The notes below the pieces were generated by a model, which did no database searches, was not told where the DNA came from, and was given only the letters and a program-made list of their open reading frames with translations. A program made the translations under genes and the position numbers. 64,000 nucleotides of DNA from a virus. The stretch covers positions 290,681 to 354,680 of IMG/VR virus record IMGVR_UViG_3300032236_000747; one strand, given 5' to 3'. Below, in pieces: positions 37,412 to 58,970 of the stretch (its first letter is position 1; each line of letters begins with the position of its first letter).

Positions 37412-37416
37412 CCTAC

Positions 37417-37486
37417 ATCCAAATAGCATCCCGGCGTAGCCAGGGCTAGATAGGGCTAGGCGAAGCTAACTGTTTGGATCGTCGGG
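37417..37486 (+). ncRNA. Candidate H-type pseudoknot RNA
   Basis: Four segments alternate as required for a pseudoknot. ATCCAAA (37417-37423) pairs with TTTGGAT (37473-37479). CCCGGCG (37430-37436) pairs with CGTCGGG (37480-37486) with one G.U. The two 3' arms are adjacent, allowing coaxial stacking. The loop also has TAGC/GCTA (37437-37440 with 37465-37468). It lies between a gene stop and the tmRNA promoter. It could be a short RNA or a 3' end structure; unknown family. Confidence 0.4.
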
Positions 37487-37515
37487 TTGACAACATTCCT
37501 TGATTGTTGTATAAT
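37487..37515 (+). promoter_or_regulatory. Consensus sigma70 promoter of the tmRNA gene
   Basis: TTGACA (37487-37492), 17-bp spacer, TATAAT (37510-37515): a perfect match. Predicted start about 37522, exactly where the tmRNA acceptor piece begins. Confidence 0.85.
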
Positions 37516-37521
37516 AAAAGT

Positions 37522-37586
37522 TATTGCTGTATGAAGCAAAGAGAAAAGTGTTCTGGACGCGGGTTCGACTCCCGCCAGGTCCACCA
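37522..37586 (+). ncRNA. ssrA: Permuted tmRNA, acceptor (3') piece
   Basis: This is the part of tmRNA that carries the CCA end, placed upstream of the tag-coding part. T arm: GCGGG-TTCGACT-CCCGC (37559-37575). Acceptor strand CAGGTCC (37576-37582), discriminator A, then CCA (37584-37586). It closely matches the E. coli tmRNA 3' end (GGACGCGGGTTC...). The strand pairs with GGGCCTG at 37842-37848, giving the G3.U70 pair that alanyl-tRNA synthetase needs. UUGCUGU (37524-37530) and UUCUG (37551-37555) pair with the coding piece to form helix P2. Confidence 0.92.
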
Positions 37587-37597
37587 TAAGGAAGTTT

Positions 37598-37840
37598 GTG
37601 AAAGAGTATTACATAGTTAATGGTAAAAAGTGTAAAAGAGATTCATTGCAAGATGACCTCATTTGGTCCATGAAACAATCCGATAACACTTTCAAACATT
37701 ATTGGATAGACGAACAGCAAGGATTAGGAAACAGTCACGGTGGACAATATATGCCTCCGTGGATTATGAATCGTAATCGTTATGTTGTTGATGATTTTGG
37801 AACGGTTGTAAAATATCTTCCATACAAAGTTTCTTTATGA
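37598..37840 (+). CDS. Reading frame inside the tmRNA intervening segment
   Basis: 80 residues from a GTG with TAAGGAAG 4-5 nt upstream, only 11 nt after the tmRNA CCA. Its TGA ends one base before the first G of the tmRNA coding piece. The sequence (MKEYYIVNGKKCKRDSLQDD... YWIDEQQGLGNSHGGQYMPP) looks like a real small protein, with normal amino-acid composition. No family recognised. Permuted tmRNA genes normally have a short spacer that is discarded; here it is about 255 nt and coding. The protein could be translated from the precursor or from the excised spacer. Confidence 0.65.
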   Translation: MKEYYIVNGKKCKRDSLQDDLIWSMKQSDNTFKHYWIDEQQGLGNSHGGQYMPPWIMNRNRYVVDDFGTVVKYLPYKVSL

Positions 37841-37841
37841 T

Positions 37842-38027
37842 GGGCCTGCCATGGTTTCGACAGGGCAAAGAGTAACAGAGTGGACAGCAGGGCAAAGCAG
37901 AAGCCCTTAGGGTTGGGGATTCCCGGCCGTAGACGCAAAAAAAGTAAATGCAAACGACTCACAGTTTCTAATGGTTGCCTGATAAAGGCTTCCGGGGTAG
38001 GAAATACCTTGCAACAGAAAATAACAG
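37842..38027 (+). ncRNA. ssrA: Permuted tmRNA, coding (5') piece with proteolysis tag
   Basis: Begins GGGCCTG (acceptor strand) then CCATGGTTTCGACAGGG, the conserved tmRNA D-arm region. CAGAG (37876-37880) and ACAGCAG (37884-37890) pair with the acceptor piece as helix P2. The resume codon GCA is at 37950-37952; the tag reads A-N-D-S-Q-F-L-M-V-A followed by TGA TAA (37980-37985). Bacterial tags also start A-N-D and end in small hydrophobic residues (ALAA, AVAA). The 3' end before the terminator is approximate. Confidence 0.92.
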
Positions 38028-38045
38028 AACCCGCTTCGGCGGGTT
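38028..38045. terminator. Terminator of tmRNA gene (UUCG loop)
   Basis: AACCCGC-TTCG-GCGGGTT followed by TCTT. It may also serve the convergent endolysin gene on the minus strand. Confidence 0.85.
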
Positions 38046-38047
38046 TC

Positions 38048-38728
38048 TTATGTTTTCTTAGAAGCCCATTGTTTAACTGCTGGATAGTATGTTGTAAACA
38101 GTTGATGACGTTTTTTGATTTCAGCAGCAGGCGCAGCTTTTCCATTAATGGCTCTTGTAACTGAAGCAGTATCAGCAAAGTCCTTTATACGTCTTTTAAC
38201 ATTTTGATCCCAAAACCATTTAGCAATCTTTGCCGCTTCGTGGGGATCTGCTGCCTTACTAGGATGTTCAACATAATATGATTCATCGCCATGCACGCCT
38301 GCGCCAGCAGCAATATAGTTACCCTTGCCTGTTAACTGAATGAATCCACGTCCGGCATATTCCAAAGCATCATTTGCGCCTTGGTTACCTGTGCTACGTG
38401 CATATTTGTGAGCTGCTTTATTAGGCCGACCTATCTCGCCGAGGTGTTTAAAGTTACCTGTTTCTGCGCTACACTGTGCTAGAAACTGTGCTAGTTCTGT
38501 TGGCTCGGTCATACCGCTGTTAATAGCATGTGAAGACAGTATTTTACGTGCTACATCGGCATCAACTTTTGGTGCTTGAACTAGTGGTTGCACTTTTGTA
38601 CTACGTGGATCTATTTTTTGGGGATGTTGAACAGGCTTGGCTTGTGCTATACCTGCTGCCATTGCGGCTGCTCCACCAAGGAATCCCCTGCGTGTTAAAT
38701 CTTCTCTAGTAATTTCGTATATTCGCAT
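38048..38728 (-). CDS. GH19-type endolysin with twin-arginine-like signal
   Basis: 226 residues from the ATG at 38728. The catalytic part contains LAQFLAQCSAETGNF (general acid Glu) and YAGRGFIQLTGKGNY, hallmarks of glycoside hydrolase family 19 lysozyme/chitinase domains that cut peptidoglycan. The N-terminus has TRRGFLGGAAAMAAGIAQA (RR at 13-14), which fits a twin-arginine (Tat) export signal with an AQA cleavage site. Export of an endolysin in this way would be unusual. A TAAATA motif (38733-38738, minus) abuts the start. Confidence 0.8.
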   Translation of the reverse strand: MRIYEITREDLTRRGFLGGAAAMAAGIAQAKPVQHPQKIDPRSTKVQPLVQAPKVDADVARKILSSHAINSGMTEPTELAQFLAQCSAETGNFKHLGEIGRPNKAAHKYARSTGNQGANDALEYAGRGFIQLTGKGNYIAAGAGVHGDESYYVEHPSKAADPHEAAKIAKWFWDQNVKRRIKDFADTASVTRAINGKAAPAAEIKKRHQLFTTYYPAVKQWASKKT

Positions 38729-38732
38729 CAAG

Positions 38733-46441: not shown

Positions 46442-47461
46442 ATGTCAAAACAATATAACACTCTAGTCCTCATCGGACGTTTTCAACCCTTACACAATGC
46501 TCACCTTGAGATTATCAAGCGAGCCACAGCACTTACAGATGAACTAGTTATCATCGCTGGTAGCGCAAACCAACCACGTACTTATAAGAACCCGTTTACG
46601 TTTGATGAGCGTGTTGCAATGATCAAGGCTGCTACTAGCGGTTTAGCAATGCGGGTCCATGTTGAATCTAACATTGATACTATCTATAATGATCAAGCAT
46701 GGGCAGTTCGTATCCAAAGCATTGTTAGCAAGTACCGTGTCCTAGGTGGTCGTACTGCTGTTATCGGTCATAAGAAAGATGCTAGCTCATTCTACTTGGA
46801 TATGTTCCCCCAATGGGAATACGTAGATGTAGAAAAGATCGAGCCACTGGGTGCCACTGACATCCGAGACTTGTACTTCAAACAAAGTTTCAACAGCAAC
46901 TTTATTAAGAATGTTGTTCCAACTACTACCTACGACTTCTTAATGGAATTCCGCCAAACCGAAGAGTTCCAACAAATCATTCGTGAGCGTGAGTTCGTCG
47001 AAACCTACAAGAAGCAGTATGCTAGTTTGCCATATCCTCCAATCTTCAGTACTGCTGACGCTGTTGTTATTCAAAGCGGCCACGTGCTAATGATTAAACG
47101 TAGAGCAGAGCCAGGTAAGGGCCTGTGGGCATTGCCAGGTGGTTACGTTAACGCTAACACAGACCGTACAGTAGAAGATGCCGCTATCCGTGAACTCCGT
47201 GAGGAAACAATGATTAAGGTGCCTGCGCCTGTACTGCGTGGCAACATTGTTCGCAGTAAAGTATTTGATGCTATTGACCGTAGCCCACGTGGACGCATTA
47301 TTACACACGCCTTCTTTATCCAACTGCCAGATGGTGAGTTGCCTCGAGTAAAAGGTAGCGACGATGCTGAGAAAGCACGTTGGGTTCCGATCGCAGAGGT
47401 CAAATCAGAGGAATGCTTTGAAGACCACTACGAAATCATTCAACACTTTCTTGGAGCATAA
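46442..47461 (+). CDS. nadM: Bifunctional NMN adenylyltransferase / Nudix hydrolase
   Basis: 339 residues. The N-terminal half is a nucleotidylyltransferase: GRFQPLHNAH at 12-21 with the HxxH site, and IGHKKDASSFYLDMFPQW further on. It joins NMN and ATP to give NAD+. The C-terminal half has a Nudix box from about residue 231 (GGYVNANTDRTVEDAAIREL-REET) that hydrolyses ADP-ribose or similar. This fusion is known from bacteria and from vibriophage KVP40. With the NAMPT at 48684 it forms a two-step NAD+ salvage route from nicotinamide. Confidence 0.92.
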   Translation: MSKQYNTLVLIGRFQPLHNAHLEIIKRATALTDELVIIAGSANQPRTYKNPFTFDERVAMIKAATSGLAMRVHVESNIDTIYNDQAWAVRIQSIVSKYRVLGGRTAVIGHKKDASSFYLDMFPQWEYVDVEKIEPLGATDIRDLYFKQSFNSNFIKNVVPTTTYDFLMEFRQTEEFQQIIREREFVETYKKQYASLPYPPIFSTADAVVIQSGHVLMIKRRAEPGKGLWALPGGYVNANTDRTVEDAAIRELREETMIKVPAPVLRGNIVRSKVFDAIDRSPRGRIITHAFFIQLPDGELPRVKGSDDAEKARWVPIAEVKSEECFEDHYEIIQHFLGA

Positions 47462-48683: not shown

Positions 48684-50081
48684 ATGAAACTCGCAAAAAA
48701 CATTATTCTGAACACTGACTCATACAAAGTGAGCATGTTCAAACAATACCCAGCAGGTACTACAGGTGTATATTCTTACATTGAATCACGAGGCGGACGT
48801 TACGATCAGACAGTATTCTTCGGACTCCAAGCGTTCATTAAAGAGTACTTACTCGACCCCATCACACAGGCAGACATTGATGTGGCTGACGAAATCCTTA
48901 CCGCGCACGGTGAGCCTTTCAACCGAGCAGGATGGCAATACATTCTTGACAAGCACAATGGACGCCTCCCAGTTGTCATTCGGGCCGTCCCTGAAGGAAC
49001 ACTTGTACCTGTCAAAAACGTACTCGCTACTATTGAAAACACTGACCCAGAATGCTTCTGGTTAACTACTTGGCTTGAAACAGCCTTGCTTCGTGCTATT
49101 TGGTATCCTACCACAGTAGCTACTCAATCTTACACAATCAAGAAAGTTATTCTTGACTATTTGGAGAAAACAGGTGAAACTAGTACAATCAATTTTAAAC
49201 TGCACGATTTCGGTGCTCGTGGTGTATCTAGCTTTGAGTCAGCGGGCATCGGAGGCGCAGCACACTTGGTTAACTTCATGGGTAGTGATACTATTTCTGG
49301 TGTTCTTTATGCTCGTGAATACTATGATGCTGGGATTGCAGGTTTTAGTATCCCTGCCGCCGAGCACTCAACAATCACTAGTTGGGGCCGTGCTGGTGAA
49401 GTCGATGCCTACAGAAACATGCTCAAACAGTTTGGACGAGAAGGATCAATCTTCGCAGTTGTCTCCGACAGTTACGACATTTTCAATGCCGCAAGCAAAC
49501 TCTGGGGTGAAGAACTCCGAGATGAAGTAATCGCTAGCGGAGCAACAGTTGTTATTCGACCAGACAGCGGTGATCCTGTTACTGTTAACCGTCAGTTGAT
49601 TGCTATCTTAGATCAAAAGTTTGGACACACAGTTAACAGCAAAGGATTCAAAGTCCTTAACAATGTTCGCCTCATTCAAGGAGATGGTGTAAATGAACTT
49701 ACTATTCGCGGGATTCTGGGTGCTTTTATGGCTCTTGGGTATAGTGCTGATAATATTGCTTTTGGCATGGGTGGAGCGTTGTTGCAAATCGTGGACCGCG
49801 ACACACAACGATTCGCAATGAAGTGCAGTTCCATGCAAGTGGGCGATAAGTGGGTAGATGTACAAAAAGATCCAATCACTGACGCCGGTAAGAAGTCTAA
49901 AGCAGGTAGTGTAACTCTTTGGGAGAGCGGTGGAGAATGGGTAAGTGCTGTTGATCAACCAAAAGGTTGGACAGATAAAGGATTTGGCCCATTCACCGAA
50001 ATGCTTGAAGAAGTTTACCGTGATGGTCGCCTAATCAAAGAAATTACTTTTGACCAGGTTCGGGCAAACAGCAATAAATAA
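48684..50081 (+). CDS. nadV: Nicotinamide phosphoribosyltransferase (NAMPT)
   Basis: 465 residues, the usual size. Converts nicotinamide and PRPP to NMN. Recognisable blocks: NIILNTDSYKVSMFKQYP at the start, HDFGARGVSSFESAGIGGAA (about 173-192), SIPAAEHSTITSWGR (about 222-236), VIRPDSGDPV (about 291-300) and IQGDGVNELTI. Together with the NMNAT-Nudix enzyme it rebuilds NAD+ from the nicotinamide released by NADases; such phage pathways are known to defeat NAD-depleting defences. Confidence 0.95.
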   Translation: MKLAKNIILNTDSYKVSMFKQYPAGTTGVYSYIESRGGRYDQTVFFGLQAFIKEYLLDPITQADIDVADEILTAHGEPFNRAGWQYILDKHNGRLPVVIRAVPEGTLVPVKNVLATIENTDPECFWLTTWLETALLRAIWYPTTVATQSYTIKKVILDYLEKTGETSTINFKLHDFGARGVSSFESAGIGGAAHLVNFMGSDTISGVLYAREYYDAGIAGFSIPAAEHSTITSWGRAGEVDAYRNMLKQFGREGSIFAVVSDSYDIFNAASKLWGEELRDEVIASGATVVIRPDSGDPVTVNRQLIAILDQKFGHTVNSKGFKVLNNVRLIQGDGVNELTIRGILGAFMALGYSADNIAFGMGGALLQIVDRDTQRFAMKCSSMQVGDKWVDVQKDPITDAGKKSKAGSVTLWESGGEWVSAVDQPKGWTDKGFGPFTEMLEEVYRDGRLIKEITFDQVRANSNK

Positions 50082-50674: not shown

Positions 50675-50923
50675 ATGACCTACGCTGAATATTTCGACCT
50701 AGTAACCTATAAAGCAACATATCACCTAGGTGATAGAATCATAGGTAAGCATAATGGTATTCCATTTGTAGGCACTGTTGGCAATGATAGACAACTTAAT
50801 CCAACGGAAGGTCCACGTATTAGTGTTCATTTAGATTTGCCATTAAAGGTTGACGGAACAGTTAAATGTGTTATACTAGTTAAACACAAAGATGTTAAAC
50901 GTCTTAAAGAATTAAGCGTCTGA
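50675..50923 (+). CDS. Small hypothetical protein
   Basis: 82 residues (MTYAEYFDLVTYKATYHLGD... GTVGNDRQLNPTEGPRISVH). Beta-rich, with a turn 'LGDRIIGKHNGIPFVGTVG' that resembles small SH3-like barrels. Its last 8 nt overlap the 5' end of the tRNA gene, so the tRNA must be cut out of this mRNA. Unknown function. Confidence 0.5.
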   Translation: MTYAEYFDLVTYKATYHLGDRIIGKHNGIPFVGTVGNDRQLNPTEGPRISVHLDLPLKVDGTVKCVILVKHKDVKRLKELSV

Positions 50924-50990
50924 GGCTAAGTGGTATTGCAAGGGCTTCTAAAACCCGAGACAGCAGGTTCGAACCCTGTCAGGCGCACCA
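50916..50990 (+). tRNA. tRNA with probable CUA anticodon (amber suppressor candidate)
   Basis: 75 nt with encoded CCA. Acceptor stem GCGTCTG (50916-50922) with CAGGCGC (50980-50986), one G.U. D arm GCTA...TTGC with GG in the loop. T arm GCAGG-TTCGAAC-CCTGT (50963-50979). The anticodon arm has only three central G-C pairs (50942-50944 with 50954-50956). With a 7-nt loop the loop reads TTCTAAA and the anticodon CTA (50948-50950), with U33 and A37 in place. Mismatches in the anticodon stem (C31-A39, A27-G43) and D stem leave some doubt about activity and register. Charging amino acid not determined; discriminator is A. Confidence 0.75.
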
Positions 50991-58521: not shown

Positions 58522-58785
58522 ATGAATCAACAAATTAAAAAACTTGCCGGTCGAGCATTAGACGCCTCAGTACCGCAAACTTGGACAACCTTGACTGCTT
58601 ACGATTTAAATAAGTTTACAGAAAAATTCGCCGAGTTGATTGTCAAGGAATGTATTGAACGAATTACCACATATGATTTGGTGCCCGGTCATTCTGCTAA
58701 ATGGGAAGACATTTACGATATTCATGCTAGGTTGTTACAAGACTTAGGCGAAGATTTGAAAGAACATTTCGGAGTTGAAGAATGA
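58522..58785 (+). CDS. Small paralogous phage protein (FAELIV...FGVEE family)
   Basis: 87 residues. The motif TEKFAELIVKECIE and the ending LKEHFGVEE are shared with the gene at 58967 (DEKFAELIVRECIN ... IKQHFGVEE), so the two are paralogues separated by one small gene. The family is widespread in phages with many copies and unknown function. Overlaps the next gene by 4 nt. Confidence 0.6.
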   Translation: MNQQIKKLAGRALDASVPQTWTTLTAYDLNKFTEKFAELIVKECIERITTYDLVPGHSAKWEDIYDIHARLLQDLGEDLKEHFGVEE

Positions 58786-58970
58786 ACGAATATTTCACAA
58801 AACAAATTGAACAAGGTGCCACAGAAATGTTTTTCTATGGACTAGAACGACCGGAACCTTTTACTGTAAGCATTATGAGTCACAAAGGCTCATTGGATAC
58901 ATTTCCTACCAACTTGAAATATGTGCGTCATTTAACTGATGGTATGCCCTTGTTCAAGGAAACAGTATGA
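58782..58970 (+). CDS. Small hypothetical protein
   Basis: 62 residues (MNEYFTKQIEQGATEMFFYG... YVRHLTDGMPLFKETV). No family recognised. Start and stop overlap both flanking paralogues by 4 nt (ATGA), giving a chain of coupled short genes. Confidence 0.5.
   Translation: MNEYFTKQIEQGATEMFFYGLERPEPFTVSIMSHKGSLDTFPTNLKYVRHLTDGMPLFKETV

Follow-up and report, generated by a model that had tools for sequence, protein, structure and literature searches.

The final 64 kb of a jumbo phage record hold a complete permuted tmRNA gene whose transcript very probably forms a three-part precursor, with an intervening segment (IVS) that is a slot for an exchangeable small phage gene. The anatomy of the gene, the generality of protein-coding IVSs among viral contigs, the selection on the encoded proteins (here called passengers), the covariation of a helix closing the IVS and the exchange of passengers between phages can all be read from sequence comparisons. 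The initial annotation of this DNA had overlooked both the 80-codon ORF that fills the 255-nt IVS and the fact that the ends of the IVS pair.

The stretch analysed (64 kb; the window) belongs to virus record G000 of 354,680 bp, which, like all records used, is metagenomic. It encodes a contractile tail sheath, and since the nearest isolates of this protein are those of Sinorhizobium phage Phosso and Agrobacterium phage Atu_ph07 (43–46% identity), we regard G000 as a Rak2/Atu_ph07-like jumbo phage. Two relatives, G002 (L020) and G003 (L042), have 133–135 of its 292 proteins in common at a median identity of about 48%. Side features of the record include a cluster of 13 tRNA genes at its start (G000:307–9703, L004), a tRNA-like sequence at window positions 50916–50987 (anticodon UCU by eye; 46 bits with Rfam, no call by ARAGORN) and an NMN adenylyltransferase-like and NUDIX fusion near a nicotinamide phosphoribosyltransferase (46442–47461 and 48684–50081), resembling a phage NAD+ salvage pair.

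The initial annotation had proposed a complete phage-encoded two-piece tmRNA and named the permuted covariance models as the check; its strand and coordinates were right, and the proposal is borne out. Rfam RF04321 (tmRNA_permuted, gathering score 47 bits) matches 37525–37982 end to end with 106.9 bits (E 7e-20); ARAGORN likewise predicts a permuted tmRNA, placed at 37494–38073. The claimed consensus promoter, T arm and UUCG-loop terminator are all present, as is an encoded A-CCA at 37583–37586. The 7-bp acceptor stem pairs 37576–37582 with 37842–37848 and includes G3.U70 (G37844.U37580), and P2 joins the pieces through TGCTGT (37525–37530) and ACAGCA (37884–37889). The acceptor piece lies upstream of the tag-coding piece, and the IVS joining them runs from after the CCA (37584–37586) up to the acceptor base at 37842 with which the tag piece begins. 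With this model score, order of pieces, acceptor stem, T arm and a tag frame closed by stops, the locus, as judged from its sequence, truly belongs to the permuted tmRNAs. Just downstream, a GH19 chitinase/endolysin-like gene (38048–38731, minus strand) converges with it. Upstream, a hairpin-forming stretch between the preceding gene and the promoter (37415–37478) was discarded, its stability not exceeding that of shuffles (z −1.1).

Table 1. Features of the permuted tmRNA locus and of related genes in the window (window positions).
Feature	Position	Strand	Basis or remark
Sigma-70 type promoter TTGACA-17-TATAAT	37487..37515	+	12/12 consensus matches
Acceptor (3') piece: P2 strand, T arm, acceptor 3' strand, encoded A-CCA	37523..37586	+	ARAGORN, Rfam; 5' end (37523) estimated from promoter position
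Acceptor stem 3' strand CAGGTCC	37576..37582	+	Partner 37842–37848 incl. G3.U70
IVS, 255 nt	37587..37841	+	Predicted excision by RNase P and 3'-end processing
IVS end helix, 5' strand, contains Shine–Dalgarno AAGGA	37587..37595	+	Covariation; minimum free energy of window precursor
Passenger ORF80, 80 aa, GTG start, UGA stop, no known family	37598..37840	+	Coding-like codon use
IVS end helix, 3' strand (GTTTCTTTA), encodes passenger C-terminal VSL	37829..37837	+	
Conserved UGAU leader before RNase P site; UGA is passenger stop codon	37838..37841	+	
Tag-coding (5') piece	37842..38026	+	ARAGORN, Rfam
Tag reading frame ANDSQFLMVA, tandem stops TGA TAA	37950..37985	+	Aligned with relatives' ANDSQFALAA/ANDSVFALAA
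Intrinsic terminator, UUCG loop	38027..38046	+	Minus strand also terminator-like for convergent GH19 endolysin gene
Phage ClpX, 413 aa: zinc finger, Walker A/B, GYVG pore loop, RKH loop, IGF loop	55547..56788	+	Motifs by eye
Free-standing 62-aa gene	58779..58967	+	51% identical to L024 IVS passenger

The passenger of the window, ORF80, has a Shine–Dalgarno sequence that begins 2 nt past the CCA, starts at an offset of 11 nt from it and stays open through the IVS; a single base, U, separates its UGA from the predicted RNase P site (stop offset −1). Such an arrangement turns out to be general. We scanned 2.9 million viral contigs by pattern for permuted tmRNAs at set CCA-to-ATGG gaps, the pattern covering only genes with an encoded CCA (CCACCA) and an exact T-loop, and obtained at least 202 unique IVSs within ARAGORN-confirmed permuted tmRNAs; the matches L463, L466 and L467 were rejected as tRNA arrays and L023 as not a tmRNA. 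An ORF was taken to fill an IVS if it started within 25 nt of the CCA and stopped between −20 and +14 relative to the acceptor, with the expectation drawn from dinucleotide shuffles or from shuffles with the IVS ends kept. Filling ORFs are present in 15 of the 17 clusters with an IVS of 180–300 nt, against 0.035 expected (0.17 with the ends kept), in 7 of 12 clusters of 120–150 nt (0.5–0.7 expected) and, among the matches listed, in 11 of 35 clusters of 90–120 nt (4.1–5.8 expected). A frame open through the IVS occurs in 17/19 clusters of 180–400 nt (null 0.12–0.17) and in 9/10 of 150–180 nt (null 0.33–0.47); in several of the latter, first scored as empty, the ORF does not end at the RNase P site but reads on into the tag piece. 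Exceptions among the long IVSs are L030, which has a second Shine–Dalgarno sequence and a 61-aa ORF from position +39, and L027, with a 36-aa ORF only; the longest passengers reach 104 and 122 aa.

The bacterial control gave a different picture. With the pattern set to gaps of 216–276 nt, viral contigs yielded 14 ARAGORN-confirmed tmRNAs, whereas 84,980 bacterial and archaeal genomes yielded one match that was not a tmRNA (L304, a tRNA-Ala beside an unrelated match, in a genome whose real tmRNA has a short IVS); as the pattern requires an encoded CCACCA and an exact T-loop, this is a contrast and not a census. RF04321 matches span about 170–290 nt in 399 genomes of one bacterial phylum, with few longer ones (311, 332 and 337) among the matches listed above the cut-off, and 422–458 nt in the three jumbo phages.

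The ends of the IVS are tied together by a helix of nine base pairs, one strand being the start of the IVS and the other the stretch immediately ahead of a UGAU leader. Across 139 IVS cluster representatives, among the matches listed, 93.8% of cells are standard pairs, compared with 60.7% after re-dealing the 3' ends (maximum 65.2% of 500) and 61% for the best slid version. The ORF-bearing IVSs alone are 95.5% paired vs. 79.5% when re-dealt (maximum 86.4%), and helix positions 4–8 show at least four pair types, so that pairing has been kept through changes on both strands. Folding of the window precursor to its minimum free energy also yields the helix. A test in which only the ends were shuffled, by mononucleotides, is less decisive: 22 of 1000 shuffles were as good. 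Among the matches listed, UGAU stands ahead of the acceptor in all 27 ORF clusters and in 59 of the 92 without an ORF, with UAAU in 22 more. Since the motif is there without an ORF as well, the passenger stop appears to exploit an RNA motif that exists independently of it, and the recurring passenger C-terminus VSL is accounted for by the helix 3' strand and the leader.

From these patterns we infer how RNA processing, passenger translation, gating by the helix, tagging and the use of ClpXP may follow one another. A single transcript, with one promoter and one terminator for all three products, would give rise to the acceptor RNA, a short mRNA and the tag RNA. Mature tmRNA is regarded as lacking the spacer of permuted genes; here, host RNase P would be expected to cut at 37841/37842, and this cut together with 3'-end processing after the CCA at 37586 would leave a two-piece tmRNA and a freed IVS. 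As the IVS-end helix continues the acceptor stem, the Shine–Dalgarno sequence would be masked while the precursor is folded, and the helix may in this way gate translation. A ribosome at the end of the passenger would open the 3' strand of the helix right at the RNase P site, and processing would in turn give the passenger mRNA a 3' end that falls at its stop codon or short of it. Non-stop mRNAs are the standard substrate of trans-translation, and the stop-less passenger types (the L043 family, L048, L054 and L055) would become such mRNAs upon processing.

Taken to its full extent, this reasoning would make the IVS a dedicated, structurally gated slot for swappable small genes and the passenger an inherent substrate and sensor of its own carrier tmRNA, because RNase P would trim its mRNA at or before the stop; passenger levels would rise only when trans-translation is overwhelmed, and phage ClpXP would destroy the tagged product. 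We consider this complete scheme unlikely as it stands. Its regulatory core recalls ArfA: with the tmRNA active, a cleaved mRNA that lacks a stop, or has it one base from the 3' end, would give a product that is tagged and destroyed, and that would accumulate only under saturation of trans-translation. Such regulation, which would be an addition to the coding slot and not a replacement for it, finds support in at least four families (the stop-less types just named) without a stop before the RNase P site and in a stop placed exactly one base before the cleavage site in 16 of the 27 ORF clusters, that of the window included. The same UGAU is kept without any ORF, however, and the position of the stop may reflect a constraint at the RNA level; in the other 11 of 27 clusters the stop lies 9–13 nt before the site, leaving normal room for termination, and the passengers are diverse and not rescue factors. 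ArfA-like control is, on balance, rather improbable.

A further alternative is a decayed or decoy molecule that would titrate host SmpB or alanyl-tRNA synthetase and not tag proteins. The tag proposed initially, A-N-D-S-Q-F-L-M-V-A with tandem stops, is found as GCA-AAC-GAC-TCA-CAG-TTT-CTA-ATG-GTT-GCC (37950–37979) followed by TGA TAA. ARAGORN prints a longer tag (AKKVNANDSQFLMVA), and the tags of relatives, ANDSQFALAA and ANDSVFALAA, support the original resume codon over it. The tag had also been described as unlike the usual LAA/VAA endings: the LMVA end is indeed unusual, but it amounts to a minor variant of the ALAA found in related phages. This ending and the lack of SmpB in the phage record by profile search are what speak for a decoy. 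Against it, the structural elements, G3.U70, the tag frame and the tandem stops are all intact, and ALAA tags are kept in related phages; a C-terminal LVA is moreover an efficient ClpXP degron. We therefore find a decoy quite unlikely next to a working tmRNA with a coding IVS, which presumably pairs with host SmpB in trans-translation.

Proteins tagged by this tmRNA would be degradable by phage ClpXP as well as by that of the host. In addition to ClpX, the phage encodes a ClpP with serine and histidine motifs (G000:23212–23754). Of 13 large records with a permuted tmRNA, none has a detectable SmpB, nine have ClpP and four have a ClpX zinc finger over the cut-off, a co-occurrence that is suggestive only, as Clp proteins are known in jumbo phages. 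Such phages could rely on the SmpB of the host and have their tags read by a protease that they encode themselves.

Coding by the IVS is best judged from the passengers themselves. In homologous passenger pairs, changes are concentrated at third positions and dN/dS is 0.02–0.4 in most, with a few pairs near 0.7; comparable pairs of the stop-less class have pN/pS from 0.33 to 2.0. By this measure passengers of several families are under purifying selection. ORF80 is not among them, since it has no homologue in Pfam, PHROGs or other phages and selection was measured on other families. Its sole match in the viral contigs (L002) covers 18 residues, comes without a tmRNA and has overlapping ORFs that are not homologue-like; we judged it to be due to chance. 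AlphaFold2 on ORF80 alone gave no usable fold (pLDDT 45). Its codon score of 0.191 per codon lies at the 5th percentile among real gene segments of the phage but exceeds that of every off-frame 80-codon segment of the long genes.

These results weigh on the simplest alternative, an ordinary phage permuted tmRNA whose IVS frame is a functionless chance ORF. Permuted tmRNAs are common in phages: they make up 53 of 133 unique phage tmRNA structures in PMC9004378, 79 phage tmRNAs of all forms together are reported in PMC11915505, huge phages with tmRNA and SmpB in PMC7162821, and each of two short-spacer pattern scans of IMG/VR gave at least 120 matches. Given such published cases and abundant matches, a permuted phage tmRNA alone is ordinary, and the early claim that a complete one in a phage is notable is not supported in that form. 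A chance frame would also agree with the orphan status of ORF80 and with IVSs shorter than 90 nt, which, among the matches listed, have no ORF excess over shuffles. It is very unlikely nonetheless, in view of the filling ORFs of long IVSs far above shuffles, the purifying selection on passengers and their free-standing homologues, and the codon score of ORF80. A separate observation concerns single-helix peptides of 24 aa (MNDDLTPLAIGVVVVLVVFAIVLL and relatives) encoded in IVSs of 87–91 nt; in L068, L086, L089, L091, L095, L107 and L172 (IVS 88–91 nt) they form a conserved, third-position biased family with a single transmembrane segment.

The content of the slot changes readily. By blastp, 34 passengers from IVSs of 120–300 nt fall into 26 families, and adding the two longest and four stop-less types brings the number to about 32 by eye. 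Many of the passengers of 34–122 aa are membrane or basic micro-proteins; one (L465) was considered as a GNAT acetyltransferase, but with a model pLDDT of 61 and a weak match (best E 0.036) we claim no function. The passengers of G000, G002 and G003 (80, 68 and 83 aa) are mutually unrelated despite the relatedness of the phages. Besides the homologue of the L024 passenger in the window, free-standing homologues are found for the passengers of L060 (in G003) and L047 (in G000), and those of L033, L134, L047 and L060 have homologues in other contigs that end 55–104 nt ahead of the CCA of the tmRNA. As homologues occur at both places, genes have evidently shifted between the IVS and the flank upstream of the tmRNA, one way or the other. 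The copies within the IVS end in the residues imposed by the RNA: FKKVSL in the L024 passenger vs. FKETV in its free homologue. A particular case is a small gene that ends 66–104 nt upstream of the CCA in L187, L102, L251 and L196 and lies within the IVS in L033. With different genes in the same slot of related viruses, the IVS looks like a swappable gene pocket. That the ORFs are selfish inserts parasitising the tmRNA gene in the manner of the homing endonucleases of group I introns is hardly credible: the position inside a conserved RNA gene and the exchange between phages are reminiscent of these, and LAGLIDADG genes do occur in group I introns of tmRNA (PMC11915505), but the passengers scanned against Pfam and PHROGs have no endonuclease or recombinase domain and form about 30 families of 34–122 aa with ordinary free-standing homologues.

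If the IVS is a coding slot, the precursor of a housekeeping RNA also serves as an mRNA, which would physically couple the expression of small phage proteins to RNA processing and to ribosome rescue. Phage proteins of 24–122 aa, many of them membrane or basic, would then form a hidden reservoir that annotation pipelines may skip because the genes sit inside an RNA gene. The arrangement allows a direct test of whether a gene can be controlled by the ribosome-rescue system cut from the same transcript.

Several known systems share parts of this organization. Rak2/Atu_ph07-like jumbo phages have Clp proteins, like G000, as far as the available portions of the reports on Atu_ph07 (PMC6102473) and AP-J-162 (PMC11242549) describe, and the latter phage also resembles G000 in having both a tmRNA and ClpX. 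No isolate with an IVS ORF was found by blastn; the cultured phages X1, XacN1, PA_L9 and FBPa45 have a permuted tmRNA with a structured IVS and no such ORF. In Stenotrophomonas phages Marzo and Bhz51 (L035, L040) the permuted tmRNA lies within a tRNA array, and its deposited annotations are inconsistent among Menderavirus records (tmRNA, tRNA-OTHER or nothing). In the open-licence literature, covered in part, we found no tmRNA whose IVS was reported to hold a protein gene, and to the extent that this can be checked, a coding IVS closed by a covarying end helix is an undescribed variant.

With the RF04321 family, which merges the alpha (RF01849), beta (RF01850) and cyano (RF01851) forms, the locus has in common the order of pieces, G3.U70, the T arm, the CCA and the tag frame. 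The aligned structure of that family is without pairing of the IVS ends, whereas the viral IVS ends covary strongly, and the protein-coding gene within the IVS is a feature of the locus. Methylophage Melnitz and other phages of PMC9004378 carry a two-piece tmRNA, as here; the sections of that source at hand link a glutamine riboswitch to the tmRNA gene and mention no protein gene within the IVS. Permuted tmRNAs in which the IVS carries a tRNA-Ala gene or else a repetitive element also put this segment to another use (PMC11915505), but these are single, non-protein cases, the tRNA coming from a MAG of uncertain origin. The group I introns with LAGLIDADG genes (PMC11915505) do place a protein gene inside a tmRNA gene, as in our case. 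There, however, the gene sits in a self-splicing intron in the T-loop and encodes an endonuclease, whereas the passengers described here are not endonucleases and lie in a spacer that would be removed by tRNA-type processing.
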